From Knoellia subterranea KCTC 19937 (GTDB lineage: Bacteria > Actinomycetota > Actinomycetes > Actinomycetales > Dermatophilaceae), in contig NZ_AVPK01000001.1 in the NCBI RefSeq assembly GCF_000768685.1, positions 248,001 to 312,000 on the forward strand: 64,000 bases of DNA, in the 5' to 3' direction. The notes beneath the pieces are model-generated. The model had not been told where the DNA came from and made no database searches. It saw only the letters and a list, made by a program, of their open reading frames with translations. Shown piece after piece: positions 1 through 64,000 of this stretch (position 1 is the first letter of the stretch; every line of letters starts with the position of its first letter). The translations under genes and the position numbers were made by a program.

Positions 1-1089
1 CTGGCCGTGACGGTCGTCGTCGCCGAGCACCGCATCGAGCGCGTCCTCCAGTACGCCGACACCGTCGTCCATATCGGCACGAATGGCGTTGTGACACAGG
101 GCGATCCGGCGGAGGTCATGCTCACCGCGGAGGTCGCTCCACCCGTGATCGAACTCGGGCGATGGGCGGGCTGGTCGCCACTCCCCCTCTCCGTTCGGGA
201 CGCCCGCCGTCGGGCCAGGTCGTGGCGCCAGCTCCCGCCCGGGCAACCCGCCACCGGTCAACACTCCGCCGGTGAAGCGGCTGCCCCTGCTGGGCACCCG
301 CACGAGGGCGAAGCACTCCTCGAGGCCAGGGGCATCGTCGTCCGGCACGACGGCGTCGTCGCCGTGGCTGACGTCGACCTCACCCTCCGCTCTGGCGAGG
401 TCACCGCCCTGATGGGCCGCAACGGCGCCGGCAAGTCCTCGCTGCTCTGGGCCATCCAGGGCACGGGCGCCCTGACCAAGGGCACGGTCCGCATGACGAA
501 TTCCATTGCGGGACAGGCGATCGACGTCCGCTCCCTCGACGCCGCCCAGCGTCGTCGACACGTCGGACTCGTACCCCAGTCGGCCGCGGACCTCCTCTAT
601 CTCGACACGGTCGGCGCCGAGTGCGACCAAGCGGACCGCGAGAGCGGTCGCGACCCCGGGACCTGCCGCAGCCTTCTCGACGACCTGGCACCCGGCATAC
701 CCGATGATCGTCACCCACGTGACCTCTCCGAAGGGCAACGACTGGCACTCGTCCTGGCCGTCCAACTCACGGCCGACCCGCCCGTGCTGCTGCTCGACGA
801 ACCGACCCGAGGCCTCGACTACTCCGGCAAGGCCGCCCTCCGGCGGGCCCTGCACGGCCTCACCGCGCGCGGCCGCAGCGTCGTCGTGTCCACGCACGAC
901 GTCGAATTCGTCGCCGAGACCGCAGACCGGGTCGTGGTCATGGCCTCCGGAGAGGTCGTCGCCGACGGCCCGACGCGCGACGTCGTCGTCTCCAGTCCTG
1001 CCTTCGCCCCGCAGGTCTCGAAGATCACCGCGCCTCAGCCGTGGCTCACCGTCGACGACGTCCGGTATGCCGTCCCGGAGCCATCGTGA
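1..1089 (+). CDS. ECF transporter tandem ATPase subunit (5' end outside window)
   Basis: ATPase that powers an energy-coupling-factor importer at the inner face of the membrane. The frame is open from base 1, so the start lies upstream. The first visible ~45 residues are the tail of one ABC ATPase domain (VAEHR switch/H-loop, then ADTVVHI). After a Pro/Ala/Arg-rich linker comes a full second domain: Walker A GRNGAGKSS (bases ~415-441), signature LSEGQ (~724-738), Walker B VLLLDEP (~784-804) and H-loop STHD. Two ATPase domains in one chain is the usual CbiO/YkoD-like form in actinobacteria. The stop overlaps the start of the next gene, an S component. The transmembrane T component is presumably upstream. 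The substrate cannot be told from the ATPase. Confidence 0.85.
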   Translation: MAVTVVVAEHRIERVLQYADTVVHIGTNGVVTQGDPAEVMLTAEVAPPVIELGRWAGWSPLPLSVRDARRRARSWRQLPPGQPATGQHSAGEAAAPAGHPHEGEALLEARGIVVRHDGVVAVADVDLTLRSGEVTALMGRNGAGKSSLLWAIQGTGALTKGTVRMTNSIAGQAIDVRSLDAAQRRRHVGLVPQSAADLLYLDTVGAECDQADRESGRDPGTCRSLLDDLAPGIPDDRHPRDLSEGQRLALVLAVQLTADPPVLLLDEPTRGLDYSGKAALRRALHGLTARGRSVVVSTHDVEFVAETADRVVVMASGEVVADGPTRDVVVSSPAFAPQVSKITAPQPWLTVDDVRYAVPEPS

Positions 1090-1937
1090 CCGCGTTCGCC
1101 AACCCTCCCCGTTCCGCTGACCTGCCCAGAGGCGCGCGGGCGATCCGGCTGCGCCCACGGTCCATCGCGGCCATCGTCGCGGTGAGCCTTGCCGGTGTGG
1201 TCGCGTTCGGGTGGCCCCTCATCGTCGACCCCGGGTCCTCCCTCGGGCACTCGACCGACGCTCCGCTCGTCTTCTCCCTGCTCATGCCGCTGCTCCTGGC
1301 GGTGGTGCTCGCGGAGATCTCCGAAGGCGGCCTCGACGTCAAGGCCATCGCGATGCTCGGCGTCCTCTCGGCCGTCGGTGCCGCGCTGCGACCCATTGGT
1401 GCGGGGACGGCCGGGCTCGAGACCGTGTTCTTCCTCCTCATCCTCGGCGGGCGCGTGTTCGGCGCGGGCTTCGGCTTCGTGCTGGGCTCGACGACACTCT
1501 TCGCCTCGGCCCTGATCACGGGTGGTGTCGGTCCATGGCTGCCCTTCCAGATGCTCGGCGCCGCGTGGGTCGGGCTGGGCGCGGGGCTGCTCCCGCCGCT
1601 GCGGGGACGCGCCGAAATCGCGATGCTCGCGGCCTGGGGGGCGGTGTCCGCGCTGCTCTATGGCGTCGCGCTCAACCTCATGTTCTGGCCGTTCACCACC
1701 GGTCTCGACGGCGAGTTGTCGTTCGTGGCCGGCGCGCCCGTTGTCGAGAACCTGCACCGCTTCCTCGTCTATTCGCTGGCCACCTCACTCGGGTGGGACA
1801 TCGGTCGGGCCCTCACCAACATCGTCCTCATCGCACTCACCGGTCGGGTCGTGCTCCGCACCCTGCGCCGGGCCGCACGCAAGGCGGCGTTCGAGGCGCC
1901 GGTCGAGTTCACCGAGTCCACACCTGTCGCAGGCTGA
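1086..1937 (+). CDS. ECF transporter substrate-binding S component
   Basis: Integral membrane substrate-capture subunit of the ECF importer. It has 283 residues with about six hydrophobic segments: an N-terminal one (AAIVAVSLAGVVAFG), a pair around LLMPLLLAVVLAEI and AIAMLGVLSAVGAAL, then a Gly-rich stretch (GGRVFGAGFGFVLG) followed by WLPFQMLGAAW, typical of ECF S proteins. The GTG at 1086 is chosen because it overlaps the preceding ATPase stop as GTGA; a longer frame from 1041 would add an Arg-rich non-membrane tail inside the ATPase gene. Translational coupling with the ATPase implies one complex. The fold resembles S components assigned to cobalamin or thiamine-precursor uptake, but I see no substrate-defining residue; substrate unresolved. 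Confidence 0.8.
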   Translation: MTAFANPPRSADLPRGARAIRLRPRSIAAIVAVSLAGVVAFGWPLIVDPGSSLGHSTDAPLVFSLLMPLLLAVVLAEISEGGLDVKAIAMLGVLSAVGAALRPIGAGTAGLETVFFLLILGGRVFGAGFGFVLGSTTLFASALITGGVGPWLPFQMLGAAWVGLGAGLLPPLRGRAEIAMLAAWGAVSALLYGVALNLMFWPFTTGLDGELSFVAGAPVVENLHRFLVYSLATSLGWDIGRALTNIVLIALTGRVVLRTLRRAARKAAFEAPVEFTESTPVAG

Positions 1938-1995
1938 GGGCGAGCGTGCCGGACCTGCGGAGACGCGAGGTCGGCGCTTTGGCACAATCGCGAGC

Positions 1996-2535
1996 ATGGC
2001 CCCTCTCGAGACCGACAACACCCCTGCCTGGTTGAGCCGCGAGGAACTCGACAGTGCGCGGGAGCGGCTGCCCATCCTCTACGTCGACGCCGTGCCGGTC
2101 CGGGTCGACGAGCGTGGCGCCGTCGCCGCCGTGGGACTCCTGCTCCGGGCCAACACCGAGGGTGAGATCCAGCGCGAGCTCGTGTCCGGGCGCGTGATGT
2201 ACCACGAGCGCGTCCGGGACGCCCTGCTCCGTCACCTCGAGAAGGACCTCGGGCCCATGGCGCTGCCGGCGGTGCCGACGTCGCCCGTGCCGTTCACCGT
2301 GGCCGAGTACTTCCCCACGCCGGGCGTCACGCCCTTCCATGACCCGCGCCAGCACGCCGTGTCCCTGGCCTTCGTCGTCCCGGTGACCGGCGACTGTGCG
2401 CCGCAGCAGGATGCGCTGGACCTCGCCTGGCTCACGCCGGACGAGGCGCTGGCCCCCGGTGTCCTCGCCGAGATGGACCGCGGCCACGGTGTCCTGCTGC
2501 GGCAGGCGCTGGCGCACCTCGGTCACCCGGTCTGA
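1996..2535 (+). CDS. Nudix-like DUF4916 family protein
   Basis: 179-residue soluble protein of the actinobacterial DUF4916/Nudix-like group. It begins MAPLETDNTPAWLS and contains the family-like stretches ILYVDAVPVRVD, VGLLLRANTEGEIQRELVSGRV and YFPTPGVTPFHDPRQHAVSLAFVVPV. The classical Nudix box (GX5EX7REUXEEXGU) is not intact, so hydrolase activity on nucleoside diphosphates is uncertain. The ATG at 1996 has no Shine-Dalgarno; a -10-like CACAAT sits at 1983-1988, seven bases upstream, suggesting a leaderless transcript. It stands alone between the ECF genes and the convergent plsC. Family recognition is fairly sure; the reaction is not. Confidence 0.75.
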   Translation: MAPLETDNTPAWLSREELDSARERLPILYVDAVPVRVDERGAVAAVGLLLRANTEGEIQRELVSGRVMYHERVRDALLRHLEKDLGPMALPAVPTSPVPFTVAEYFPTPGVTPFHDPRQHAVSLAFVVPVTGDCAPQQDALDLAWLTPDEALAPGVLAEMDRGHGVLLRQALAHLGHPV

Positions 2536-2562
2536 GACCCTGCTTGCCCCGACCCGCAGGGG

Positions 2563-3327
2563 TCAGGCCTTGCGCCCCTTGTTGAACTTGTCGACGGTCC
2601 GGTTCATGTCGTGGTGGTCCTGGGCCTTCGCCTCGTCGGGCGTTGGCGCCTGCCCACCCAGCCGAGCCGGCTGGTAGATGAGGTCATCGCCCGTGAGCTC
2701 GGGGTAGGCCGCCTGCTGCGCGTGCAGCTGGGCCGTCATGACCTCCTGGAGGTGCGCCGTCGCCTCGGCACGGTTGGCGTCCGGCGCGACGTGGATCGGG
2801 GCTCCCACCGTGATGAAGATGGGGATCCCGCTGCGCCCCATGTGCTTGGGGACGTTCTTGCTCCACACCCGCTGTGAACCCCACAGCGTCGTCGGCAGGA
2901 TCGGCACACCGGCCTCCTGCGCCATCCGCACCGCGCCCGGCTTGAACTCCTTGAGCTCGAAGGACCGCGACATCGTCGCCTCCGGGAAGACGCCGACGAT
3001 CTCACCATCCTTGAGCGCCTGGACAGCGCGATAGAACGAGGCCCGACCGTCCTTGCGGTCCACCGGGATGTGCTTCATGCCGCGCATGAGCGGGCCCGCG
3101 ACGCGGTGGGAGAAGATCGACTGCTTGGCCATGAAGCGCACGAGGCGCTTGCTCTTGCGGGCGGCGAGGCCGGCATACGTGAAGTCGAAATATCCGGTGT
3201 GGTTGATCGCCATGACCGCCCCTCCGGTGCGGGGCACGTTGTCCTCACCCTCCATGCGGAACTTCAGGCCCTGCGCGGCGAAGACGCCACGGGCTGTGGT
3301 GATGACCGAGGAGTACACGGGTTCCAT
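2563..3327 (-). CDS. plsC: 1-acyl-sn-glycerol-3-phosphate acyltransferase (PlsC family)
   Basis: Membrane-associated acyltransferase that adds the second acyl chain to lysophosphatidic acid in phospholipid synthesis. The 254-residue protein has the HX4D catalytic box (NHTGYFD, residues ~43-49), the substrate-binding FPEAT motif (~115-119) and a short hydrophobic lead, with a basic C-terminus (NKGRKA). The length matches stand-alone PlsC-like enzymes. The start ATG at 3327 lies seven bases after a TAGGCT hexamer on the same strand, with a palindrome over it, so it appears to have its own leaderless promoter inside the last codons of the upstream truncated subtilase gene. Substrate range within the PlsC family cannot be judged from sequence. 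Confidence 0.88.
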   Translation of the reverse strand: MEPVYSSVITTARGVFAAQGLKFRMEGEDNVPRTGGAVMAINHTGYFDFTYAGLAARKSKRLVRFMAKQSIFSHRVAGPLMRGMKHIPVDRKDGRASFYRAVQALKDGEIVGVFPEATMSRSFELKEFKPGAVRMAQEAGVPILPTTLWGSQRVWSKNVPKHMGRSGIPIFITVGAPIHVAPDANRAEATAHLQEVMTAQLHAQQAAYPELTGDDLIYQPARLGGQAPTPDEAKAQDHHDMNRTVDKFNKGRKA

Positions 3328-3334
3328 GGACCCC

Positions 3335-3352
3335 AGCCTACGGTGCCGTAGG
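3335..3352 (-). promoter_or_regulatory. plsC promoter -10 with overlapping palindrome
   Basis: On the minus strand TAGGCT (3340-3335) lies seven bases before the plsC ATG. A perfect inverted repeat, CCTACGG-TG-CCGTAGG (3337-3352), overlaps this hexamer, so a dimeric repressor bound there would block it. The regulator is unknown. Placement at the promoter is inference. Confidence 0.45.
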
Positions 3353-4069
3353 TTCGGCCGACAGGCAGCGGCCCATGTGGTTCGCTACTGTCGGAACGGT
3401 GACCTCACCGGAGCCCGCGAACGGACGGACAACCCCCGCGCGGTAGGCCTCCAGGAGGGCATCGACGAGTTGCTCGGTATAGCTCATCGACAGGCTGACG
3501 CTGATGACCTTGGCGCCGTCCTTGATCGCCTGCCGCATCGCCCGGGCAGTCGCCTGGGACAGGTTGTCGATGGACGGGTCGCTGAGCCCGCAGCCGAGCG
3601 GGTCAGAGCTGTTCACCAACGGAAACATGACGGCGTAATGCCGCAGCGTCGCCTCGGGAGCGATGCCGGCGACCCCCTGCCGCCGGCCGCCGCCCTTGCC
3701 AGAGCCAACGATGAGTGACGCCATGCTCGTGGCGTGATCCGCGGATTTGTCCCGCGCCGTCGACTTCTGGCGACCACCGCCGGGGGCGAGACACTCCGTC
3801 GTCGTCGAGGCCACACGCCCCTTCAGTTTGGGCACGCTCGAGTCGAGGGGGCTGTCAATGAGCGCGATCGTGATGCCCTTGCCGGTCCCCACCCGGTTCA
3901 GCTCGTCGACACCCATCGCCGACCGCCCCCACTGGCCGTCGTCCAGTTGGTCCGCCGACGCGGCCGGTGGCGCGACGAGGGCAGCCCCGAGCACGGCGGT
4001 CATGGCCACCCCAGCCAGAGCTGAACGCACCCCCTGATCACGGTGTCGGACCTTTGCGTTGCCAGCCAT
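3338..4069 (-). pseudogene. truncated secreted S8 subtilisin-like protease
   Basis: N-terminal part of a secreted subtilase. Residues 1-~40 form a Sec signal peptide (basic start, hydrophobic SALAGVAMTAVLGAALVA, AxA-type site ending ASA). The catalytic Asp region is IALIDSPLDS (~71-80) and the catalytic His region SADHATSMASLIVG (~109-122). After DALLEAYRAGVV, where subtilases continue into the strand before the oxyanion Asn and then GTSxA, the sequence loses family character and stops after ~35 unrelated residues (PFAGSGEVTV...). No oxyanion Asn or catalytic Ser follows in any frame before plsC. At 243 residues it is about 60% of the usual length, so a 3' deletion is likely and protease activity is not expected. 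GGGGAG lies upstream of the ATG at 4069. Confidence 0.8.
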
Positions 4070-4203
4070 GGCACCCTCCCCAGATATCCCGTTCGGGCCG
4101 CGCGTAGCCGCCCGTGTCCCGCCTGTGCCGTCTCACAGGGGAAGGCCATACGGGGGTCAGGCGCGGTCGTGGGCGGACGGCATACCCGACCTCCGGAACC
4201 CGG

Positions 4204-4233
4204 TTGGGAGCACGGGTGACGTTCTGGGAGAAT
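4204..4233 (+). promoter_or_regulatory. candidate valS promoter
   Basis: TTGGGA (4204-4209), an 18-base spacer, then GAGAAT (4228-4233), with seven bases to the valS ATG. Four of six positions match each sigma-70-type hexamer. It implies a leaderless or near-leaderless valS mRNA, and no T-box-like leader is visible. Confidence 0.4.
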
Positions 4234-4240
4234 CGCGCCC

Positions 4241-6907
4241 ATGTCTGCTGACCTCACGCCATCTCGCGCTGCCACGATCCCGGAGCGTCCCTCGCTGGAC
4301 GGACTCGAGGACAAGTGGGGGCAGGTATGGGCGCAGGAGCAGACCTACCGCTTCGACCGGGAGGCCGCCCTCGCGGGCGAGCGCCAGCAGGTCTTCTCGA
4401 TCGACACTCCCCCGCCGACCGCGTCGGGCAGCCTGCACATGGGTCACGTGTTCTCCTACACGCACACCGACTGCATGGCGCGCTACAAGCGCATGGCCGG
4501 GTTCAACGTCTTCTACCCGATCGGCTGGGACGACAACGGTCTGCCGACCGAGAAGCGCGTCCAGAACTACTACGGCGTGCGCGGCGACGCCTCGCTCCCC
4601 CACGACCCCGGCTTCGAGCCGCCGCATCGCGGTGACGCGAAGAGCCTGCGTGCCGGTGACGCGCTGCCGATCTCGCGACAGAACTTCATCGAGCTCTGCG
4701 ACGAGCTGACCGTCGAGGACGAGAAGGCGTTCGAGTCGCTCTTCCGTCGCCTCGGTCAGTCCTTCGACTGGGACATCTCCTACCGCACGATCGACGACCA
4801 CTCGCGCGCCACGGCGCAGCAGGCGTTCCTGCGCAACCTGTCCCGCGGTGAGGCCTACCAGGCGGAGGCGCCGGGTCTGTGGGACGTGACGTTCCAGACG
4901 GCCGTCGCCCAGGCCGAGCTCGAGGCGCGCGACTACCCGGGTGCGTACCACCGGGTCGCGTTCCACTCTTCGAATGGACCCATTCATATCGAGACGACGC
5001 GGCCGGAGCTCATCCCGTCGGTCGTCGCGCTCATCGCCCACCCGGACGACGAGAGGTATGCCGACCTGTTCGGTTCCACGGTCCGCTCGCCACTGTTCGG
5101 GGTCGAGGTCCCGGTGCTCGCGCACCCGGCCGCCGAGATGGACAAGGGCGCCGGCATCGCGATGTGCTGCACCTTCGGTGACCTCACCGACGTCATGTGG
5201 TGGCGCGAGCTGCAGCTGCCGACGCGTTCGGTCATCACCCGTCAGGGCCGCATCCAGGCCGAGACGCCGGAGTGGATCGCCGGCCGTCCGGGCGAGGCGC
5301 TCTTCGGTGAGCTCGTGGGCAAGACCGTCCACTCGGCGCGTGAGACGGTCGTCGACGCCCTGCGCGAGTCGGGCGACCTCGACGGTGAGCCGAAGGCGAC
5401 CCAGCGCAAGGCGAACTTCTACGAGCGTGGCGAGAAGCCCCTCGAGATCGTCACGTCGCGCCAGTGGTACATCCGCAACGGTGGGCGGGACTTCGAAAGG
5501 AACGGCACAGACCTCAACGAGGCCTTGATTGCTCAGGGTCAGGCGATCGACTTCCACCCGTCGTTCATGCAGGCGCGCTACGCCAACTGGGTCGCCGGCC
5601 TCAACGGTGACTGGCTCATCTCGCGCCAGCGATTCTTCGGCGTCCCGATCCCCGTCTGGTACCCGCTCGACGCCGACGGCGAACCGGTGTGGGACAAGGT
5701 GATCGTGCCGTCCGAGGCCTCCCTGCCCGTCGACCCGGCGGCTCAGGCGCCGGAGGGATACGACGAGTCGCAGCGCGGTCAGGCCGGCGGGTTCATCGGC
5801 GACCCCGACGTGCTCGACACCTGGGCGACCTCGTCGCTCTCCCCGCAAATCGCCGCTGGATGGCGTCAGGTCGACGAGAACGGTTCTGTCACAACGGATC
5901 CGATCTTCGACAAGGTCTTCCCGATGGACGTGCGACCGCAGGGTCACGACATCATCCGCACCTGGCTCTTCTCGACCGTCGTGCGTTCGTTCTTCGAGCA
6001 CGGCACCGTTCCCTGGACCAACGCGGCCATCAGTGGCTGGATCCTCGACCCGGACCGCAAGAAGATGAGCAAGTCCAAGGGCAACGTCGTCACGCCCGAG
6101 GACGTCCTCAAGGAGCACTCGGCCGACGCCGTGCGCTACTGGGCGGCCTCGGGTCGTCTCGGCACCGACGCGGCCTACGACGTGGGTCAGATGAAGGTCG
6201 GCCGCCGCCTCGCGATCAAGGTCCTCAACGCGTCGAAGTTCGCGCTCTCGTTCGGAGAGGTGGACGGCGACCTCGGTGCGCTCGTCACCAACTCGCTCGA
6301 CCGGGCGCTGCTCGCCGGGCTGCGCGACGTGGTCGAGAAGGCCACGTCCGGCTTCGAGTCGTGGGACTACACCCGCTCGCTCGAGGTGACCGAGACCTTC
6401 TTCTGGACGTTCTGCGACGACTACCTCGAGCTCGTCAAGGACCGCGCCTACGGCGCCCAGGGCGACGACGAGGCGGCCTCCGCGCGCGCCACGCTCCGCA
6501 TCGCGCTCGACGTGCTCCTGCGCCTCCTCGGCCCCTTCCTCCCCTACGTCACCGAAGAGGTGTGGTCGTGGTGGCACGAGGGCTCGGTCCACGTGACCGC
6601 GTGGCCGACGGCCGACGAGATCGGCTGGAGCGGCGACGCCGTCGACCCGACCATGCTCGGTGCCGTCGGCGCGGCCCTCGCGACCGTCCGCAAGAGCAAG
6701 TCCGAGGCCAAGTTGTCGATGCGCGCAGAGGTCGCCCGCATCACGCTCGGCGGCCCCGAGGCGTTGCTCGACCACGTGCGGGCCGGTGAGCAGGACCTGC
6801 GCGCCGCCGGCAAGATCACCGGGTCTCTCGACCTCGTCGCCGCCGACGCCTGGGGCGCGAGCGACGTCGAGCTCATCCCCGTGGAGAAGCCGAAGCCCCA
6901 GCAGTGA
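4241..6907 (+). CDS. valS: valyl-tRNA synthetase
   Basis: Class I aminoacyl-tRNA synthetase that charges tRNA-Val. The 888-residue protein carries the HIGH-type signature as HMGH (residues ~65-68) after PPPTASGSL, the valine-site motif GWDDNGLPTE, a CP1 editing domain (~200-400; PHD and DKGAG-type stretches), the KMSKS loop (~608-612) and a C-terminal anticodon-binding domain. It ends soon after that domain (LIPVEKPKPQQ) and lacks the C-terminal coiled-coil of E. coli-type ValRS, as in one of the two bacterial ValRS lineages common in actinobacteria. It is coupled by GTGA overlap to the next membrane-protein gene. The start ATG is supported by the -10-like hexamer just upstream. Confidence 0.97.
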   Translation: MSADLTPSRAATIPERPSLDGLEDKWGQVWAQEQTYRFDREAALAGERQQVFSIDTPPPTASGSLHMGHVFSYTHTDCMARYKRMAGFNVFYPIGWDDNGLPTEKRVQNYYGVRGDASLPHDPGFEPPHRGDAKSLRAGDALPISRQNFIELCDELTVEDEKAFESLFRRLGQSFDWDISYRTIDDHSRATAQQAFLRNLSRGEAYQAEAPGLWDVTFQTAVAQAELEARDYPGAYHRVAFHSSNGPIHIETTRPELIPSVVALIAHPDDERYADLFGSTVRSPLFGVEVPVLAHPAAEMDKGAGIAMCCTFGDLTDVMWWRELQLPTRSVITRQGRIQAETPEWIAGRPGEALFGELVGKTVHSARETVVDALRESGDLDGEPKATQRKANFYERGEKPLEIVTSRQWYIRNGGRDFERNGTDLNEALIAQGQAIDFHPSFMQARYANWVAGLNGDWLISRQRFFGVPIPVWYPLDADGEPVWDKVIVPSEASLPVDPAAQAPEGYDESQRGQAGGFIGDPDVLDTWATSSLSPQIAAGWRQVDENGSVTTDPIFDKVFPMDVRPQGHDIIRTWLFSTVVRSFFEHGTVPWTNAAISGWILDPDRKKMSKSKGNVVTPEDVLKEHSADAVRYWAASGRLGTDAAYDVGQMKVGRRLAIKVLNASKFALSFGEVDGDLGALVTNSLDRALLAGLRDVVEKATSGFESWDYTRSLEVTETFFWTFCDDYLELVKDRAYGAQGDDEAASARATLRIALDVLLRLLGPFLPYVTEEVWSWWHEGSVHVTAWPTADEIGWSGDAVDPTMLGAVGAALATVRKSKSEAKLSMRAEVARITLGGPEALLDHVRAGEQDLRAAGKITGSLDLVAADAWGASDVELIPVEKPKPQQ

Positions 6908-7647
6908 CCTCGACGGCGCCCTCCCCGCGGCCGGCCACGGATCCCTCGCTCCCGGCCGCGCTGGGAGGGGCGCCGATCGCGGTGGGCGCGCTCACGGCAT
7001 ACACGGTCGTCTGTCTCGTTCACCTCGGCGCGCAACTGCGCGGTGCCGACGGGACGGCCAACCTCACCCAGTGGCTGGCCGTGCCCTGCCTCCTGGTCGC
7101 ACTCCTCGGGCTGACCCGGCTGCGGTCGCGCCTCACCCGCTACGCCGCCGCCGGGCTCGTCTGGTCGTGGCTCGGTGACTCGCTCCCCGACTTCGTCCCC
7201 GAGTCGGTCACCTTCATCGTGCTCATGCTCGCGTTCCTCGTCGCGCACATGTTCTTCATCGTCGGCTTCTGGCCATGGCGACGAGAATCGTTGCTGCACA
7301 GTCGAATTGCGTGGCTCTACGTCGCGATCGCGGTCGTCATGGTGGTCGCCTGCGCGGCCGAGGCGGGACCGCTCACGATCGGCATTGCCGTGTATGCCGG
7401 TGCGCTGGCTCTGATGGCGCTGCTCGCCCGGGGCGTCGACATGCTGGCGGGGCTGGGAGGCATCGCGTTCCTCATCTCCGACGGTCTGCTCGCCGTGGGT
7501 GAGTTCGTGCCGCGCATCGAAGTCCCGCAGAGCGGGTTCTGGGTCATGCTGACGTATCTCGGGGCCCTGGCCCTGATGACGCTGGGTGTGGCGCAGCGCG
7601 AAGCGCGGGGGTCAGGCGCTCGAGGTCGCCCGAACCCCGCCCAGTGA
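6904..7647 (+). CDS. YhhN-family (lysoplasmalogenase-like) membrane protein
   Basis: Polytopic membrane protein of 247 residues with about eight hydrophobic segments. It has the YhhN/TMEM86 family landmarks: an Asp-bearing segment GLVWSWLGDSLPD, then FLVAHMFFIVGF, and later GIAFLISDGLLA, whose acidic residues are conserved in lysoplasmalogenases. Family members in animals cleave the vinyl-ether bond of lysoplasmalogen; the bacterial role is not settled. GTG at 6904 overlaps the valS stop (GTGA), so it is probably co-translated with valS, a pairing with no obvious functional logic. Its 3' end overlaps the convergent gene at 7612 by 36 bases. Confidence 0.75.
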   Translation: MTSTAPSPRPATDPSLPAALGGAPIAVGALTAYTVVCLVHLGAQLRGADGTANLTQWLAVPCLLVALLGLTRLRSRLTRYAAAGLVWSWLGDSLPDFVPESVTFIVLMLAFLVAHMFFIVGFWPWRRESLLHSRIAWLYVAIAVVMVVACAAEAGPLTIGIAVYAGALALMALLARGVDMLAGLGGIAFLISDGLLAVGEFVPRIEVPQSGFWVMLTYLGALALMTLGVAQREARGSGARGRPNPAQ

Positions 7648-44516: not shown

Positions 44517-44518
44517 CC

Positions 44519-54834: not shown

Positions 54835-56553
54835 TCAGGGAAAGACGAGATCCGGTATGCCGGGTGCGGACACTGTGACCGCGTCCCGACCGAGATCGGC
54901 CGAGACCGTCATCCCGCGGTGCGACATGACGAAGGTCTTGCCGTCGTCCTCGACGTGGCAGGTGACGTCGGCGAATCGCGTGGTATCCGTGCCGATCACG
55001 GAGCGGCGCAGGGCAATCAGGTCGGTGTACCACCGCAGGAGTGAAGCGTGCGGCTCCGACGAGAGTTCGTCCCACCGCAGCACGCTCGCGTCACGCGTGG
55101 CGCGTGACTGCGGGTCCGGGATCTCGTCGGCCGTCCACCCGTGCGCTCCGAACTCGGCGCGACGGCCAGCCCGCACGGCCTCGGCCATGGCCTCGTCGGT
55201 GAAGTCGGTGAAGAACTGCCACGGGGCCGACGTCGCGAACTCCTCCCCCATGAACACCATCGGTGTCCCCGGGCCGAGGAGGTAGAGCGCCGCACCGATC
55301 GCCTGCCGACCCGGGCTGAGCGTCGCTGAGATCCGGTCGCCGGTGGCCCGGTTGCCCACCTGGTCGTGGGTCTGGAGGTAGGTGACGAGTCGGCGGCCGT
55401 CGAGGCTGTCGACGTCGATGGGCTTGCCCCACGCACGACCGCGGAACGTGGACCACCGGCCGTCATGGAGGAATCCCCGGGTGAGGACGTGGGCGAGGAC
55501 GTCGAGCGGACCACCATCGGGAAGGCTGCGCGTGCCGCCCCCGAAGTCCTCGTAGTAGCCCTGCGTCTCCCCCGTCAGCGCGACGTGCAGCCCGTGGTGC
55601 ACGTCGTCGGCCCACTGGGCCGTCATGCCGAGCCCACCCTCGGCGGTGGTCGTGACCATTGCGGTGTCGTTGAGGTCGCTCTCCGCGATGAGGTCAAGTG
55701 GGCGGCCCAGCGAATCCGCCAGTGCCGCAACGGAATCCGATAGTTCTGCGAGGAGGTGCCGCTCCCCTTCATCGACAAGGGCATGGACGGCGTCGAGGCG
55801 CAGGGCGTCGACGTGGAAGTCGCGGAACCAGCGCAGCGCGTTGTCGATGATGAACGCCCGCACCTCGTCCGAACCCGGAGCGTCGAGGTTCACGGCTGGC
55901 CCCCACGGGGTCGTGTGAGTCTGCGTGAAGTAGGGCCCGAACCGGCCGAGGTAGTTGCCGCTCGGACCGAGGTGGTTGTAGACGACGTCGAGGCACACCC
56001 CGAGCCCGCGTGCGTGGCACGCGTCGACGAATCGCTGGAAGGCGAGCGGACCACCCAGGGCGTCGTGGACGGCATACAGGTCCACACCGTCGTAGCCCCA
56101 GCCCCAGCGGCCGGGGATCGCGGCGACGGGCAGGATCTCGACGACGTCGACGCCGAGGTCGACGAGGTAGTCCAGGCGCGCGATCGCGGCATCGAACGTG
56201 CCTTCGTCGGTGAAGGTCCCGATGTGGCATTCGTAGACGACACCGCCCAGCGTGCCGGCCCCGTCGCGAGGGCCCCGCCACGTCGCATCGGCCCACTGGT
56301 GCGCCGCGACGTCGAACCATCGGCTGGGTCCGTCCACTCCGTGCGGTTGCCACGCACTGCGGGGGTCCGGAAGAGCGGGCGACTCGCCATCGAGGACAAA
56401 GGCGTAGTCGAGAACGGGGTATGCCGTCGGGTCCCCTTCCCAGCGCCACCACCCTCGGTCATCGCGCGCCATGGGCTCACGGGCCGGGCTCTCGCCGGGC
56501 GCACCGAACTCGATCTCGACCCTGGCGACGTCGGGGGCCCAGACCTCGATCAT
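54835..56553 (-). CDS. treZ: malto-oligosyltrehalose trehalohydrolase
   Basis: Releases trehalose from maltooligosyl-trehalose, the last step of the TreY-TreZ route. The 572-residue protein has an N-terminal CBM48-like domain (IEVWAPDVARVEIEF), then a GH13 barrel with WGYDGVDLYAV, VCLDVVYNHLGPSGNYL, the nucleophile Asp in DALRLDAVHALVD (~250), the acid Glu in LIAESDLND (~285) and LQTHDQVGNRATGDR. Its ATG at 56553 overlaps the treY stop. Last gene of treXYZ. Confidence 0.96.
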   Translation of the reverse strand: MIEVWAPDVARVEIEFGAPGESPAREPMARDDRGWWRWEGDPTAYPVLDYAFVLDGESPALPDPRSAWQPHGVDGPSRWFDVAAHQWADATWRGPRDGAGTLGGVVYECHIGTFTDEGTFDAAIARLDYLVDLGVDVVEILPVAAIPGRWGWGYDGVDLYAVHDALGGPLAFQRFVDACHARGLGVCLDVVYNHLGPSGNYLGRFGPYFTQTHTTPWGPAVNLDAPGSDEVRAFIIDNALRWFRDFHVDALRLDAVHALVDEGERHLLAELSDSVAALADSLGRPLDLIAESDLNDTAMVTTTAEGGLGMTAQWADDVHHGLHVALTGETQGYYEDFGGGTRSLPDGGPLDVLAHVLTRGFLHDGRWSTFRGRAWGKPIDVDSLDGRRLVTYLQTHDQVGNRATGDRISATLSPGRQAIGAALYLLGPGTPMVFMGEEFATSAPWQFFTDFTDEAMAEAVRAGRRAEFGAHGWTADEIPDPQSRATRDASVLRWDELSSEPHASLLRWYTDLIALRRSVIGTDTTRFADVTCHVEDDGKTFVMSHRGMTVSADLGRDAVTVSAPGIPDLVFP

Positions 56554-59030
56554 GACGTCCTCACCAAGAGCGCGACAGGAAGGTCCGAGAGCAGGTCAGC
56601 CAACACCGCGTTACCAGAGAAAGTGCGAGTTTGACTGTCCGACAGCACATTTCGCCATTGGCCATGTGGGAGACGGACCGATGCCTGACCGAAACCACCG
56701 GCAGCGGCAAGTCGATCGGCCTCGAGCGTCACGAGAGCCAGAACGTCGTCGCCGGCCTGACCACGACTGAAGGCGATGGCGTGCGGCGTGTCGCAGTCGA
56801 GGCCCGCGTACGACGTGGTGTCACCGACAAACCACTCGGGGTGCTCGCGACGTAGGCGCAGCGCGGTGGCGGTCACGAGCAACTTCTCGTCGTCGAGGTC
56901 GCGTGGAGTCCCGTCGGCATCGAGGCGAGCGAGCCGCTCCGTGCGATCGGCCCAGTCGACCGCGCCACGGTTGTCGGGGTCGACGAGGGTGAGGGCCTGC
57001 AGTTCCGCACCCTGATACACGTCGGGCACACCGACAGCGACGAGCTGGAGCAGCTTCTGCCCGAGCACGTTGGCCCGGATCGATTCGGAGTGGTGCGACA
57101 GCCAGGTGCCGACGAGCGTCGCAATGGCCCTGTCGGCCACGACGCTTCGAGCGAAGTCCACGACGGCCCCTTCGTACTCGGCGTCGCCATCGATCCAGGC
57201 AGTGTGGTCCTTCGCCTCGCGGATCGCCTTGAGGACATAACCCTCGATCCGGTCCGGCGACATGGGCCACGTGCCGATCACGGTCTGCCACACGAGGTAC
57301 TCAGTCGCCGGGTCCACGCGCGAGGAGCGCTGTGCCGCAACGAGATCCGACGCCTCCCGCACCCACGCAGCCCAGCCGTCGGCATCCTCGGCGAGCGTCA
57401 TGAGTCTGGCCCTGACGTCCTCGGACCTCTTTGTGTCGTGCGTCGTGAGGGTCGACATCGTCGTGGCCCAGGTCGCCACTTGCCGCGCCTGGAACGCGTG
57501 GAACTCGGCCGGGTCGATGGACAGGTGCGCAGGATGCCCACCCACCTCATTGGCGCCGACCATGCGAGCCCAGCGATAGAACGCGGTGTCCTCGATGCCC
57601 TTGGCCATGACGGGTCCGCACGTCTGCTGGAACCGCACGACGAAGTCGTCCACCAGGGCGCGATCCGCTCCTTCGGGGACGACACCCTGCGCCAGGGACA
57701 GGAGCCGGTCGAGATCGGCATGGGCCGCAGGGCGGAGCTGCGCCCGGGCGCGGTCACCAGCAGCTGTCAGCACCTCGACCTGCTCCGATGGCGCGGGTTC
57801 GCCGGGGACGACATAGGCGCGATAGCGGTCCATCGCCACGAGGAGAGCCCTCAGGGCCTCGAGCACGAGGTCGGGGTTCAGCCCGTCATGGATGCGGTGG
57901 ACGACCAGGCGGAGACGGGTGACCTCGGCGACGAGGACGTCATCGACGACGAGTTCCTTCGATGCGGCAACCACGTCGTCGAGCTCCGCGCGCTCCGCCC
58001 GGGCATGCTCCGCCCACAGCTCGTCGAGGACGGCATCCCCACGTGACGAGGTCAGCACCTGTTGCACCCGCAGCAAGGTGTCATATCCGGTGGTCCCGGC
58101 ACACGGCCACGAGGGAGGCAACTGCTCGTCACCCTCCAGGATCTTCTCCGCGACGACCCACGCCCCGCCGGTCGCTTCGGCCAACCGGGCGAGGTAGCCC
58201 TCGGGATCGGCGAGCCCGTCCGGGTGATCGATGCGGAACCCATCGATCGCCCCCTCGCGCCAGAGGTCGAGCAGGAGAGCGTGGGTCGCATCGAAGACAT
58301 CGTTCTCCTCGACCCGCACGGCGATGAGCGACGTGACGTCGAAGAAGCGGCGGTAGTTCAGGTCCGTGCTCCCGGCCCGCCAGTGCGTGAGCAGGTAGGG
58401 CTGCGCCTCGACCAGTTCCGCGATCGGCAGGGTCTCCGTCCCGGGCGCAACGGGGTACTCGTGCCCGTAGTAGCGGAGCACCGTCTCGTCCCCACCTGCG
58501 CCACCGTCGCCCGCCATGGTGAGTTCACCCGCGCGCAGCACCTCGTCCAACGACGCACCCAGGACCGGCATGAGCACGCGCCCCCGGCGCCCGTCGGCGA
58601 ACCACCTGCCCACCGACTCCCACTCGATGTCGAACCAGTGCGCGTGCGGCGATGCCTCACCGTCGCGGAGCAGGGACCACAAGGGGGCGTTGCGCCACGT
58701 CTGTTCCGGCACGGTCATGTGGTTGGGGACGACGTCGACGATGATCCCGAGCCCGACGGCATGTGCGGCCGCGACAAGCCGGTCGAACGCCTCCCGACCA
58801 CCCGCCGCCTCACTCAGCACCGTGTGGTCAACGACGTCGTAGCCGTGCGTCGACCCCGGTGCGGCTTGGAGGATCGGTGACAGATACAGGTGTGAGACAC
58901 CGAGATTCGCGATGTATGCCGTGCGCTCAGCTGCCGCGTCGAAGCCGAACCCACCGTGGATCTGGAGGCGGTAGGTGGAGGTGGGCACGGCGCGACGCGA
59001 GGTGCTCACGAAGACGGGGGCGGACGGCAT
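56550..59030 (-). CDS. treY: malto-oligosyltrehalose synthase
   Basis: GH13 isomerase that turns the reducing-end alpha-1,4 bond of a maltodextrin into an alpha,alpha-1,1 bond. The 826-residue protein starts with PTSTYRLQIHGGFGFDAAAE, contains VDVVPNHM, the nucleophile in GFRIDHPDGLADPEGYL, VVAEKILEGDEQLP and GTTGYD, all TreY hallmarks. The start is ambiguous: ATG at 59030 is taken, with a TTG at 59036 directly after the treX stop and a GTG at 59012 as alternatives; none has a strong Shine-Dalgarno. The ATG is itself part of a GTATGCCG octamer. Confidence 0.95.
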   Translation of the reverse strand: MPSAPVFVSTSRRAVPTSTYRLQIHGGFGFDAAAERTAYIANLGVSHLYLSPILQAAPGSTHGYDVVDHTVLSEAAGGREAFDRLVAAAHAVGLGIIVDVVPNHMTVPEQTWRNAPLWSLLRDGEASPHAHWFDIEWESVGRWFADGRRGRVLMPVLGASLDEVLRAGELTMAGDGGAGGDETVLRYYGHEYPVAPGTETLPIAELVEAQPYLLTHWRAGSTDLNYRRFFDVTSLIAVRVEENDVFDATHALLLDLWREGAIDGFRIDHPDGLADPEGYLARLAEATGGAWVVAEKILEGDEQLPPSWPCAGTTGYDTLLRVQQVLTSSRGDAVLDELWAEHARAERAELDDVVAASKELVVDDVLVAEVTRLRLVVHRIHDGLNPDLVLEALRALLVAMDRYRAYVVPGEPAPSEQVEVLTAAGDRARAQLRPAAHADLDRLLSLAQGVVPEGADRALVDDFVVRFQQTCGPVMAKGIEDTAFYRWARMVGANEVGGHPAHLSIDPAEFHAFQARQVATWATTMSTLTTHDTKRSEDVRARLMTLAEDADGWAAWVREASDLVAAQRSSRVDPATEYLVWQTVIGTWPMSPDRIEGYVLKAIREAKDHTAWIDGDAEYEGAVVDFARSVVADRAIATLVGTWLSHHSESIRANVLGQKLLQLVAVGVPDVYQGAELQALTLVDPDNRGAVDWADRTERLARLDADGTPRDLDDEKLLVTATALRLRREHPEWFVGDTTSYAGLDCDTPHAIAFSRGQAGDDVLALVTLEADRLAAAGGFGQASVRLPHGQWRNVLSDSQTRTFSGNAVLADLLSDLPVALLVRTS

Positions 59031-59036
59031 ACGCAA

Positions 59037-61229
59037 TCAGACCTGACGTTCCGAGGTCGCGGCTCCCGTCGGCACGGGCGCGGTCTCGCGCGGAGTCCGC
59101 AGGACGACGACCGAGTGGGGGCCGACGGTGATGCCAGATCCGGCTTCGTGCCAGCCGGGGTCGACAACGTCAGCACAGGTGTCGATCTCGATGAGCCACC
59201 GCTCGCCCCACTCGGTGGAGGGGATGGTGAAGGCGGCCTCTTCGTCGTCGGCGTTGAAGAAGACGAGGAAGTCGTCGTCGGTGATCATCTGTCCGCGGTT
59301 GTCGGGTTCGTGGATGGCACCACCGTTGAGCCACACCATGATTCGCAACGCGTCGCCGGACCAGTCTTCCTCCGCCATGGGTTCGCCGGAGGGCCGGAGC
59401 CAATAGATGTCGCCCATCGTCGACTGTCCGCCGTGGTCGGCCGAGCCGGCGAAGAATCGACGCCGCCGGAAGACCGGGTGGTTGCGCCGCAACCGAACGA
59501 CGGCCTTGGTGAACTCGAGCAGCTCGAGTTGGTCCTCGTCGAGCTGCCAGTCGACCCACGCGGTCTCGTTGTCCTGGCAATAGACGTTGTTGTTGCCGCC
59601 CTGGGTGCGCCCGATCTCGTCGCCGTGGCTGATCATGGGAACTCCCTGGGACAGCAGCAGCGTCGTGAGGAAGTTGCGCAGCTGGCGCAGGCGCACCGAC
59701 CGGATCTCGGGATCATCGGTGGGGCCCTCGACGCCGTGGTTCCACGAGCGGTTGTGACTCTCGCCGTCGAGGCCGTTCTCGCCGTTGGCGGCGTTGTGCT
59801 TCTCGTTGTAGGACACGAGGTCGCGCAGGGTGAAGCCGTCGTGCGCCGTGATGAAGTTGATCGACGCGATGGGCTTGCGGCCGCTGTGCTCATAGAGGTC
59901 GCTCGACCCGGTGATGCGAGAAGCGAACTCTCCCAACGTTGCCGGCACACCCCGCCAGAAGTCACGGACGGTGTCGCGGTACTGCCCGTTCCACTCGGTC
60001 CACATGGGTGGGAAGTTGCCGACCTGGTAGCCGCCATCACCGACGTCCCAGGGCTCGGCGATGAGCTTGACCTGAGAGATGACCGGGTCCTGCTGGATGA
60101 TGTCGAAGAACGCGGAGAGCTTGTCGACCTCGTGGAACTGACGCGCGAGCGTGGCGGCAAGGTCGAAGCGGAAGCCGTCGACGTGCATCTCGGTGACCCA
60201 ATAGCGCAGCGAGTCCATGATGAGCTGGAGGACGTGCGGGTTGCGCATGAGCAGGCTGTTGCCCGTGCCGGTGGTGTCGTAATAGTGCTGCTTGGCGGTG
60301 TCGACGAGTCGGTAGTAGCTCGCGTTGTCGAGGCCCCGGAAGCAGATCGTCGGACCGAATTCGTTGCCCTCGGCCGTGTGGTTGTAGACGACGTCGAGGA
60401 TGACCTCGATGTCGGCCTCGTGGAGGGCCTTGACCATCGCCTTGAATTCGGTCACCTGCTGGCCTCGCTCGCCCTGTGCATAGGCGTTGTGCGGAGCGAG
60501 GAAGCCGATGGTGTTGTAGCCCCAGTAGTTCGTGAGCCCCTTGGCCTGGAGCGAGGTGTCCTGGACGAACTGGTGCACGGGCATGAGCTCGATGGCGTTG
60601 ACGCCGAGGCCCTTGAGGTGGTCGATGATCACCGGGTGCCCGATCGCGGCATAGGTCCCGCGGATCTCCTCGGGCAGGTCGGGGTGGGTCATCGTCAGGC
60701 CCTTGACGTGCGCCTCGTAGATCACCGTCTCGTGGTAGTCGTGACGCGGCGGCCGGTCGTGGGACCAGTCGAAGTAGGGGTTGATCACGACGCTCAGCAT
60801 CGTCTTGCCGAGGGAGTCCTCGGTGTTGCGCTGCGTGGGGTCGAGGAAGTCGTAGGCGAAGAGTGCCTGGTCGTTGGTGACCTGCCCCTCGATCGCCTTG
60901 GCATAGGGATCGAGCAGGAGCTTGCTCGGGTCGCAGCGGTGCCCGGCCTCCGGGTCGTAGGGGCCGTGGACGCGGTAGCCGTAGCGCTGGCCCGGTTGGA
61001 GCCCAGGGATATAGCAGTGCCAGACGAAGTGGTCGATCTCCGGCACCGAGATCCGCGTCTCGACGAGTTCACCGTCCGGCCCGTCGTCGATGAGGCACAG
61101 CTCGACGAACTCCGCGACCTCGCTGAAGAGGGCAAAGTTGACGCCACTGCCGTCGTAGGTGGCACCCAGGGGGTATGCCGTTCCGGGCCAGATCTCCATG
61201 GCCGCCTTCCAGTTCACGTCGTGGGTCAT
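59037..61229 (-). CDS. treX: glycogen debranching enzyme TreX/GlgX
   Basis: Cuts alpha-1,6 branches of glycogen to supply linear maltodextrin for TreY. The 730-residue protein has an N-terminal CBM48 domain ([19 protein letters not shown]), and a GH13_11 barrel with [13 protein letters not shown], the nucleophile Asp in [10 protein letters not shown], the acid Glu in [27 protein letters not shown], and a C-terminal beta domain. ATG at 61229 has AGGAG only two bases upstream; ATG at 61199 ([12 protein letters not shown]) with GGAAGG five bases upstream gives the more usual N-terminus. First gene of treXYZ. Confidence 0.95.
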
Positions 61230-61355: not shown

Positions 61356-62111
61356 GTGACCGCTCCCCGCACCGCCGTCATCACCGGAGCCGCCCGCGGT
61401 ATCGGCGCCGCAACCGCCCGTCGGCTTGCCAAGGACGGGTATGCCGTGGCTGTCGTCGACCTCGACGAGTCCGCTTCCGAGGTGGTTGCGTCCTCGATCC
61501 GTGAGGCCGGCGGTTCGGCGCTCGGCGTGGGCATCGACGTGTCCGATGCAGAGCAGGTCGAGGCCGGTGTGGCGCGCATCGCCGACGAGCTGGGGGCGCC
61601 GGTCGTCCTGGTCAACAACGCCGGAATCATCCGAGACAACCTCATCTTCAGGATGTCCGAGGCCGACTGGGACTCGGTCATGAACGTGCACCTGCGCGGC
61701 GCCTTCCTCATGACGAAGGCCTGCCAGGCCCACATGACGGCGGAAAAGTTCGGACGCATCGTCAACCTCTCGTCCTCCTCGGCACAGGGCAACCGCGGGC
61801 AGGCGAACTACTCGGCGGCCAAGGCCGGACTCCAGGGCTTCACCAAGACGCTCGCGATCGAGCTCGGCAAGTTCGGCGTGACGGCCAATGCCGTGGCCCC
61901 GGGCTTCATCCAGACCGACATGACGGCTGCGACGGCCGAGCGCGTGGGCGTGTCCTTCGAGGACTTCCTGGCGCATGCCGCCTCGCAGACGCCGGTGGGT
62001 CGCGTGGGTCAGCCCGACGACATCGCGGCGACGATCTCCTTCCTCTGTTCCGAGGAGGCCGGGTTCGTCTCGGGCCAGGTCATCTACGTGGCGGGCGGTC
62101 CGCTCGACTGA
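61356..62111 (+). CDS. fabG: 3-oxoacyl-ACP reductase-like SDR (FabG)
   Basis: NAD(P)H-dependent short-chain reductase of 251 residues. The nucleotide site is TGAARGIG (~10-17), NNAG occurs at ~87-90, and the catalytic set is Asn, Ser (NLSSSSAQG), Tyr and Lys (YSAAK, ~152-156), followed by PGFIQTDM. This matches FabG-type enzymes; substrate may be acyl-ACP or acetoacetyl-CoA. GTG at 61356 is preceded by GGAGGAA and a run of eight C that fills the spacer. It is divergent from treX and unrelated to it in function. Confidence 0.88.
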   Translation: MTAPRTAVITGAARGIGAATARRLAKDGYAVAVVDLDESASEVVASSIREAGGSALGVGIDVSDAEQVEAGVARIADELGAPVVLVNNAGIIRDNLIFRMSEADWDSVMNVHLRGAFLMTKACQAHMTAEKFGRIVNLSSSSAQGNRGQANYSAAKAGLQGFTKTLAIELGKFGVTANAVAPGFIQTDMTAATAERVGVSFEDFLAHAASQTPVGRVGQPDDIAATISFLCSEEAGFVSGQVIYVAGGPLD

Positions 62112-63053: not shown

Positions 63054-63060
63054 TCCAGCA

Positions 63061-63122
63061 GTCGAGAGGAGAGAACACGCCGCCAGCCCACCGGCATACG
63101 CGGCGTGTTCTCTCCTCTCGAC
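63061..63122. terminator. 23-bp perfect hairpin after the ArsR-SRPBCC operon
   Basis: Arms 63061-63083 and 63100-63122 (core GAGAGGAGAGAACACGCC) are perfectly complementary. The 16-base loop holds the CGGCATAC octamer. It lies eight bases after the operon stop and just before the next gene. Confidence 0.7.
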
Positions 63123-63133
63123 CGGGCCTGTGG

Positions 63134-64000
63134 ATGACGCCGCGGCGAGATCGCGGAAATTCGGCATGCTCACGGGGTGCACCGAGCCCTCTGCCCGAGT
63201 CGCTCGCTGCCGGACCGTTCAGCACGGACCAGGCCCGCGAGCAGGGTCTGCCTGTCTCCCGACTGCGACGTGGGGACCTGACCCATCCCACTCGCGGCGC
63301 CCACGTTCTCGAGGTGCCGACGACGCTCGCCTCGCGCGCTCTCGCCTTCGGCGTCGGTATGCCGTCCGCGCGCGCATACTCGCATCTCACCTCCGCGAGG
63401 TTGCAGCGTTTCCCCCTCCCCTCCGCCCTCGAGGAGGAGGCCGACTCAGGCCCGCTGCACGTGATGGCTGAGACTTCCGATGGTCGGGTGATGCGAGCGG
63501 GGTGCGTGGGGCACCGCGGACTCGAGATTCGTGAGGTGGTCGATGTCGACGGGCTGCGACTGGTGGGCCCGGCCGATACCTGGGTGGACCTCGGCGAACT
63601 GCGCCGCGGCCGCCTCACCGTGGACGATCTCGTGGTCGTCGCCGACGCGATCACTGCTGAGCTGGATGCCTCCGCGTCAGCCGCCGTCACGAGTGGCGCA
63701 CGAACTTCTCCCGGCGTGAGGGCCCTGCACAAAGCTCTTCATCAACGGATTCGTCCCCGCGGCAAGGTGGCGCTTGCGCGGGCCCTCGATCTCACCCGCC
63801 CCGGGTCGGGTCACCCATGGAGACACGGGCCCGGCTCATGTTCGTCCGAGCCGGCTTCCCCGAACCGGAAGTGTGCGGCGTCATCACCGACGAGGCAGGC
63901 GAATTCCTGGCGCAGGGCGACCTCGTGTGGCGGCGCGAGAGGGTTGTCGCGGAGTACCAAGGAGCGCCCCACGCCGACATCGGCCGCCGGAGCGCCGACA
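63134..64000 (+). pseudogene. DUF559/AbiEi-like endonuclease-domain gene, frameshifted, runs off window
   Basis: Two frames together read as one actinobacterial DUF559-type protein. Frame one starts at ATG 63134 and gives a typical N-terminal part: FSTDQAREQGLPVSRLRRGD, GVGMPSARAYSHLTSARL, LEIREVVDVDGLRLVGPADTWVDL and HQRIRPRGKVALARALDLTRPG. Near 63800-63817 the homology jumps frame to METRARLMFVRAGFPEPEVCG, then DLVWRRERVVAEYQG, the PD-(D/E)xK-like nuclease core, open to the window edge. No stop is met in either frame here, so a one-base indel or a sequencing error is the simplest explanation. Function in the family (vsr-like nuclease or antitoxin-like) is not established. Confidence 0.65.

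Follow-up and report, generated by a model that had tools for sequence, protein, structure and literature searches.

The octamer GTATGCCG recurs throughout a 64,000-nucleotide stretch of the genome of Knoellia subterranea KCTC 19937 (hereafter, the window; C1:248001-312000), and our analyses strongly support its maintenance by selection at the level of DNA rather than protein. By analogy with the uptake sequences known mainly from two Gram-negative families, we lean towards the view that this word is the core of a directional self-tag resembling such sequences, both in this Knoellia-related host and in genomes belonging to 30 of the 53 genera that represent its family in the sample. If so, it would possibly be the first tag of this kind in a Gram-positive phylum.

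Within the window, the word occurs exactly 46 times (24 copies on the plus and 22 on the minus strand), with copies from position 693 through to 63364, where the last one ends, in agreement with the count of about 46 given in an earlier note on this DNA. The twentyfold excess proposed there captured the strong over-representation but underestimated its size, because 100 dinucleotide-preserving shuffles of the window contained 0.91 copies on average and four at most, which makes the excess about 50-fold. The enrichment is a property of the whole genome rather than of the window: the assembly (G000; 3,566,056 bases, or 3.57 Mb, in 33 contigs) carries 2,444 copies, 1,233 forward and 1,211 reverse, compared with 54 copies of the reversed control word GCCGTATG. 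Over 452 kb of G000, GTATGCCG ranks as the top octamer under Markov models of order 1 (293 copies versus 6.0 expected) and order 3 (293 versus 13.0), while under order 5 it comes second after TATGCCGT, itself part of the same extended word. Among its 24 one-letter neighbours in these 452 kb, CTATGCCG (24 versus 5.0) and GTAGGCCG (37 versus 9.7) clearly exceed what the order-1 model predicts, GCATGCCG (58 versus 32.7) and GGATGCCG (70 versus 41.1) exceed it somewhat, and the remainder lie near or under it. The word is non-palindromic, reading CGGCATAC on the other strand, and in this it differs from HIP1 (GCGATCGC) of cyanobacteria, a hugely over-represented octamer that is palindromic.

About 866 kb of the genome were studied in detail, with genes defined by a simple purpose-made caller. 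On the 732-kb contig C1, coding sequences hold 323 copies, whereas 60 synonymous-codon shuffles give 23.4, and intergenic sequences hold 122, against 3.6 predicted from base composition. It could be argued that a GC-rich genome produces the excess through its codon or dipeptide preferences, as the usual frames of the word read Tyr-Ala and Ala-Tyr; synonymous shuffling refutes codon bias as the cause, the intergenic surplus and the scarcity of the reversed word also speak against it, and we attach practically no credence to this explanation. Across the 866 kb, tyrosine is encoded by TAT in 176 of 204 xxG-TAY-GCC-Gxx contexts versus 110 of 487 other Tyr-Ala pairs, and alanine by GCA in 149 of 223 xCG-GCN-TAC contexts versus 6 of 441 other Ala-Tyr contexts. 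Summed over 100 kb from each of four further carriers, TAT is used in 112 of 119 such contexts and in 64 of 217 elsewhere, with GCA at 61 of 89 and 11 of 234, respectively. The assertions of the earlier note that the word lies within as well as between genes, that it brings in otherwise rare Tyr TAT and Ala GCA codons, and that selection therefore acts on DNA thus hold against a codon-aware expectation. In the host's own genome, GTACGCCG, a near-cognate, falls below expectation (on C1, 46 versus 91 in genes and 0 versus 6.9 between them), which would fit the conversion of near-misses to GTATGCCG, if such conversion occurs.

The copies avoid one another in an orientation-specific manner. Among neighbours 60-600 bases apart, opposite-strand cases outnumber same-strand ones by 82 to 11 (p 1.4e-14); the resulting opposite-strand fraction of 0.88 compares with 0.36-0.56 for 27 other octamers of similar abundance. 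When all pairs are considered, the same-strand density falls to 0.15 of the chance level for distances of 60-200 bases, 0.14 for 200-400 and 0.21 for 400-600, and reaches about 0.5 at 600-1,000, 0.67 at 1,000-1,500 and 0.93 at 1.5-2 kb, whereas the opposite-strand density stays at 0.75-1.21 of chance up to 2 kb. Since exclusion extends over about 1 kb on the same strand and is absent for the opposite one, we read the site as acting one way, so that one copy would remove the need for another in its own direction over about 1 kb and leave the other direction unaffected. Exclusion also occurs in the carrier G008 (17 opposite-strand to 5 same-strand neighbours), with a trend in G138 (11:3) and G116 (8:2). 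With these three and the carrier G164 pooled, same-strand pairs at 60-300 bases occur at 0.39 of chance (8 versus 20) and opposite-strand pairs at 1.46 (29 versus 20).

Along C1, the 453 copies are balanced between the strands (220/233) with a mean gap of 1,604 bases. None of the 40-kb bins is markedly skewed (the most uneven being 9/15, 4/8 and 8/13), and the 732 kb show no skew of the kind that rises towards the terminus in FtsK-orienting polar sequences (KOPS) or architecture-imparting sequences (AIMS), although the terminus may lie outside this contig. The 100-kb stretches of four other carriers gave strand counts of 39/31, 26/34, 31/41 and 28/28. The three largest copy-free gaps on C1 measure 15.1, 13.2 and 12.1 kb. 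The first contains a polysaccharide locus; the other two each carry an IS110-like transposase, the second within a type III restriction-modification-like island and the third together with Rhs-like genes. The names of these island genes, like those of the tad genes below, come from open frames read by eye and not from a family search. Among 4-kb segments, the four with less than 62% G+C have no copies, the six at 62-65% have a mean of 0.67, the 13 at 65-67% a mean of 1.92, and the 149 at 67-71% about 2.7. The word is apparently scarce in island-like and in low-G+C DNA, as judged from gap genes named by eye rather than from a formal split into core and accessory genes. The type III restriction-modification-like island (G000:C1:415889-429071) adjoins a truncated TadA/CpaF-like open reading frame (ORF) of 217 amino acids. 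Phage TJE1 of Tetrasphaera jenkinsii has two copies in 49 kb with 0.75 expected, a figure for a single phage, whose host may or may not carry the word.

Sites tend to be kept in place among relatives. All 9 of the own sites compared are intact in the same-genus genome G006 (9 of 12 in the reverse direction) and 6 of 8 in Knoellia remsis (6 of 6 in reverse), against 20-22% for random eight-column windows, the samples being small; the comparison with G008, in which there was no own site and one G008 site that was not kept, says little because it spans only 885 aligned columns. The Flp region is 79% identical to that of G006 over 14.7 kb and 77% identical to that of K. remsis over 8 kb. Knoellia remsis carries 11 copies of GTATGCCG in 14.7 kb, and its ComEC is the closest to the host's own (77%) among the named records returned, very near records excluded.

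The family sample comprised 186 genomes from 53 genera. All nine genomes of the host's genus carry 1,971-3,277 copies, and at least 400 copies (range 404-4,724) were found in 106 of the 186 genomes, spread over 30 genera; another 14 have 150-399 copies and 66 have fewer than 150. Among 362 genomes drawn from the order but outside this family, GTATGCCG reaches at most 180 copies, within a few-fold of the control, and 15 copies were counted in 58 loci from other actinobacteria, which total 1.1 Mb. Loss of the word from many genera was considered and partly rejected, because several low-count genera use dialects, some of which emerged from 40-kb samples of twenty low-count genomes. Genome-wide, GGATGCCG is present in 2,099-4,480 copies in G025, G026, G042-G045 and G178, and in 241-1,336 copies in all other family genomes (highest in G153 and G158 of genus g46). 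The corresponding counts for GTACGCCG are 752-4,185 in G010-G012, G020-G023, G027, G083 and G087-G089 and 33-1,011 in the others, its carrier cut being a judgement, since the GTATGCCG carriers G143, G146 and G175 (865, 1,011 and 870) overlap the low end. Dialect carriers were likewise assigned by judgement of the counts. In coding DNA, GGATGCCG exceeds the codon-aware expectation in G178 (131 versus 26.1) and G042 (199 versus 34.6), as does GTACGCCG in G089 (128 versus 24.9) and G010 (26 versus 7.0); in 40 kb of G022, GTACGCCG gives only 15 versus 5.6, and in 40 kb of G083 it is outnumbered by GTACGGCG and GTACGACG. The carriers of GGATGCCG and GTACGCCG fall together by genus, apart from exceptions in g5, g15 and g32, the grouping being taken from genus labels and not from a tree. 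Both words are one-letter dialects of GTATGCCG that follow lineage.

Several further words were observed in the family and beyond. G044 and G045 are rich in both GTATGCCG (about 1,200 copies) and GGATGCCG (about 2,100-2,200), and are possibly genomes caught in a dialect switch. Janibacter melonis (G092; L107-L108), listed among the genomes that carry none of the three words, has a word of its own, CGAAGGGG(G), with 31 copies versus 4.5 in genes and 12 versus 0.3 between them in 40 kb. In G082 (L085-L086), a genome without a Flp pilin match, CGATGCGG is found 37 times versus 8.1, and in G016 (L101-L102), whose four sampled congeners use GTATGCCG, GGTCTACG is found 15 times versus 2.1; these two could be further dialects or replacements. 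G184 (L091-L092) contains a longer repeat around CCGCACCTACTCGACC, with 8- and 10-mers present 13-17 times in 40 kb, which is apparently unrelated to the octamer. The reversed word GCCGTATG is raised to about 400-580 copies per genome in G013, G014, G017, G047-G050 and others, and 20 kb of G017 hold one copy. Outside the family, GTACGNCG, which contains GTACGCCG, is strongly over-represented in several families of the class (L211, L207, L221, L258-L259), reaching 12,732 copies in a single genome of 5.3 Mb and 89 versus 27.4 codon-shuffled in 40 kb of G693; G640 contributed only 5.4 kb to this comparison. It may be an older relative, perhaps the class-wide ancestor, or, alternatively, a separate CGTACG-centred word, since its closest pairs in G693 are all opposite, which fits overlaps at CGTACG.

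In the 866 kb, the density of GTATGCCG is 1.23 per kb between genes versus 0.52 within them. The 108 unpaired intergenic copies yield the consensus GTATGCCG-T(64)-C-C/T-G(84)-C-C/T-C(78)-A/G-C-C-T(59), with A enriched at positions -8 to -12; it covers about 19 bases and then fades, so that no extended unit of the kind seen in repetitive extragenic palindromic (REP) elements or miniature inverted-repeat transposable elements (MITEs) is apparent. The T at +8 also holds in genes when compared with a synonymous control word (p 6.6e-4 in sense and 1.5e-6 in antisense orientation), the controls being small (28 and 12 sites). Unpaired intergenic copies reach their highest density, 1.35 per kb, in divergent gaps and their lowest, 0.39, in convergent ones. 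Of 31 pairs of copies less than 60 bases apart, 30 are inverted (16 in the +- order and 14 in the -+ order) and one is --. All but one of the 16 +- pairs lie between called genes (7 convergent, 8 tandem, 0 divergent), 7-77 nucleotides from a stop codon, and all 16 are predicted to form hairpins of -18 to -47 kcal/mol; 9 of the -+ pairs lie between genes and 5 inside them. Some inverted pairs are thus terminator-like, and we regard them as candidate transcription terminators placed after stop codons. Within the window, each of the three inverted pairs sits where two convergent genes end; together with the single copies, these pairs are as follows.

Inverted pairs (hairpins, no strand assigned):
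16617-16649, GTATGCCGTCCGCTC..GAGCGGACGGCATAC, between convergent called genes, about 23 nucleotides from the stop codon
20669-20708, GTATGCCGTGTGCTCA..TGAGCACACGGCATAC, between convergent called genes, about 18 nucleotides from the stop codon
23397-23431, GTATGCCGCCCGCGC..GCGTGGGCGGCATAC, between convergent called genes, about 30 nucleotides from the stop codon
Single copies of GTATGCCG:
693-700, minus strand
1065-1072, plus strand
3171-3178, minus strand
4178-4185, minus strand
5056-5063, plus strand
6995-7002, minus strand
7392-7399, plus strand
10056-10063, minus strand
10927-10934, plus strand
13094-13101, plus strand
18103-18110, plus strand
22236-22243, minus strand, with extended consensus (GTATGCCGTGTGCTCA)
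24058-24065, minus strand
30661-30668, plus strand
31732-31739, minus strand
32981-32988, plus strand
33508-33515, minus strand
35713-35720, plus strand
36062-36069, minus strand
38957-38964, plus strand
39672-39679, minus strand
40505-40512, plus strand
41532-41539, plus strand
44586-44593, minus strand
44719-44726, plus strand
45246-45253, minus strand
47646-47653, plus strand
48996-49003, minus strand
49872-49879, minus strand
51253-51260, plus strand
51771-51778, minus strand
54855-54862, plus strand
56070-56077, minus strand
56419-56426, plus strand
58914-58921, plus strand
59025-59032, minus strand
61173-61180, plus strand
61439-61446, plus strand
63092-63099, minus strand
63357-63364, plus strand

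These features resemble the anatomy of two known systems. According to passages of PMC3630211 and PMC2397512, the DNA uptake sequences (DUS) of Neisseriaceae (for example GCCGTCTGAA, for which the minor pilin ComP is the receptor) likewise number hundreds to thousands of copies at a spacing of about 1-1.5 kb (1.1-1.5 kb for neisserial uptake sequences in PMC2397512), form inverted pairs that serve as terminators, are scarce in recently acquired DNA and fall into one-letter lineage dialects. The AT-DUS ATGCCGTCTGAA, as given in part of PMC3630211, shares the letters ATGCCGT with GTATGCCG, probably by chance. The uptake signal sequences (USS) of Pasteurellaceae (AAGTGCGGT, ACAAGCGGT) similarly combine a short core with a looser flank, occur about once per kb and form inverted terminator pairs in both orders, as described in sections of PMC7811141 and PMC12616744; terminator-like inverted pairs are described for DUS and USS alike in sections of PMC2397512 and PMC7811141. 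The flanks differ, however: that of the extended USS is AT-rich in the account excerpted from PMC12616744, while that of GTATGCCG shows no more than some enrichment of A from -8 to -12 and of T at positions +8 and +18. By analogy, the combination of abundance, strand balance, a spacing of 1-1.6 kb, terminator-like pairs, apparent scarcity in islands, conservation in place and one-letter dialects matches what is described for DUS and USS. The differences from DUS are a high-GC Gram-positive host, pilus genes of the Flp/Tad type with no ComP-like receptor singled out at the Flp loci, and strong orientation-specific exclusion in the host's own genome.

The host possesses plausible machinery, with comEA (SLBB and helix-hairpin-helix domains) and comEC together on contig C14, as identified by family search, and a tadZABC-flp-tadE-like locus on C28, named by eye except for the Flp pilin. 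In another actinobacterium, Micrococcus luteus, Flp pilus biogenesis was reported to be needed for transformation in part of the text of PMC4322843. From the word, its DNA-level selection, strand balance, spacing, same-strand exclusion, hairpins and dialects, and from the comEA, comEC and flp-tad-like genes, we infer a receptor, uptake itself, directional entry, recombination and termination in a scheme that would proceed as follows. Free DNA carrying GTATGCCG with its looser flank GTATGCCGTNNGNNCNNNT would be recognized at the cell surface by a putative receptor of the Flp-pilus/ComEA route, and entry or strand processing would begin at the word and proceed one way, so that each copy would serve a single flank over about 1 kb. 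One of the strands would then pass through ComEC and be recombined into the chromosome, and such word-led uptake and recombination would lead to preferential replacement of tagged alleles. Selection, molecular drive or both would thereby spread and maintain the word on the two strands, in synonymous positions as well as in intergenic DNA, while some inverted pairs might be co-opted as transcription terminators. Changes in receptor specificity could give rise to the dialects GGATGCCG and GTACGCCG and, elsewhere, to loss.

A number of observations weigh against such a tag. Exclusion is not seen in G164 (17:12), and the dialect genomes G042 (74:45), G178 (29:22) and G089 (25:23) show little or none of it; the genome that served as its control was that of E. 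coli, rather than one of Neisseria or Haemophilus. The density of the word also drops in the 11 segments above 71% G+C (1.73 per 4 kb). None of the three words reaches carrier levels, by our judged lists, in 63 of the 186 genomes, and these include genera with both ComEC and Flp-pilin matches (g27, g46). ComEC is found in 180 and Flp pilin in 172 of the 186 genomes, whether or not they are carriers, which led us to reject the presence of competence genes as a correlate of the word; because non-carriers have the same genes, these permit the uptake hypothesis without testing it. At 20 Flp loci (G030 and G113 partly covered), no gene separates carriers from non-carriers, and no cognate surface receptor of the ComP or PpdA type could be singled out among them. 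Natural transformation in the host family did not appear among the literature matches listed, as far as these excerpts of open-licence papers go.

Of the roles entertained in the earlier note, an uptake signal fits most tests, a strand-skewed form of the chromosome-organization site is disfavoured by the strand balance over 732 kb, and a repair-guiding site remains as the main rival; a methylation site would have to be one at a non-palindromic word, unlike the HIP1-like methylation words. Chi of E. coli (GCTGGTGG) is a directional octamer with lineage-specific wording and in these respects is like GTATGCCG. If an AdnAB- or RecBCD-type nuclease-helicase were to read the word in one orientation and switch to recombination, then strand-specific action, dialects and absence from foreign DNA would follow. 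Orientation-specific behaviour with a range of about 1 kb, dialect changes between lineages, depletion in island-like stretches and the lack of correspondence with competence genes speak for it. This mechanism sits poorly with the balance of the strands over C1 and the four other carrier stretches, although the direction of replication was not mapped. In 450 kb of E. coli, the 127 Chi sites are skewed (79:48) and same-strand pairs at 60-600 bases cluster at 2.05 times chance (21 versus 10.3), whereas GTATGCCG avoids itself on one strand, at about 0.15 of chance at 60-400 bases. Neither terminator-like hairpins nor a 19-base extended consensus is known as a feature of Chi. Chi-like action would thus explain the directionality but neither the strand balance nor the contrast with E. 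coli Chi, and in this weakened form we consider it unlikely.

Still less probable, in our estimation, is a structurally scattered site for a chromosome-organizing or other abundant DNA-binding protein, such as a nucleoid protein, methyltransferase or regulator. Broad coverage at a mean gap of 1.6 kb, both in and between genes, would suit it, but the absence of skew (measured without origin and terminus positions), the existence of entire sampled genera without any of the three words and the non-palindromic form of the word would not, and exclusion restricted to the same strand is hard to obtain from a simple binding site. Alternatively, intergenic hairpins, whether terminators or REP-like units, might have spread as selfish or regulatory repeats and left single words as debris, as could be suggested by the terminator-like pairs and the higher intergenic density. 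Yet just 62 copies are in close pairs, 382 of the 536 copies that were classified fall within called genes and bend the synonymous codons there to fit the word, single intergenic copies favour divergent over convergent gaps, unlike terminators, and the consensus is lost beyond about 19 bases. We regard this explanation as very unlikely.

Returning to the uptake-like self-tag, a more far-reaching version can be formulated, which we put forward tentatively and think rather doubtful. It posits a directional uptake code in a Gram-positive phylum with one-sided copies, in which the two strands would be tagged independently because each copy works on one side only, through single-strand or one-way entry, and in which dialects of one ancestral word (GTACGNCG in further actinobacterial families; GTACGCCG, GGATGCCG and GTATGCCG here) would act as mating barriers among genera. 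Should GTATGCCG be an uptake sequence, sequence-specific bacterial 'sex' would have arisen separately in high-GC Gram-positives with a different pilus, and the dialects, switches and losses over 186 genomes would provide a natural test bed for how such a code spreads, by drive or by selection, and for species barriers. It would also offer a practical way to transform environmental actinobacteria that are hard to engineer, while the orientation-specific exclusion would make directional DNA entry readable from genomes.

As for precedents, the supposition that no actinobacterial element of this form had been described agrees with the literature matches listed, among which, by title and beginning of the abstract, no such word appears. 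No open-licence paper on uptake sequences in Actinobacteria or Actinomycetota was found, an absence that is not proof because only papers under such licences were covered. The term 'uptake sequence' is absent from the main texts of PMC4322843 and PMC8467076, and no relevant entry appears in passages of PMC2843746, a paper on common octamers. Comparison of a stretch of the window with plasmids returned only distant, mostly transporter matches, which we did not use as evidence. Finally, at the Flp locus of the host, two adjacent similar ORFs (L138:8310-9635; 151 and 144 amino acids), putatively sortase-like, precede the Flp pilin gene, an arrangement seen in this genome only among the 20 loci.

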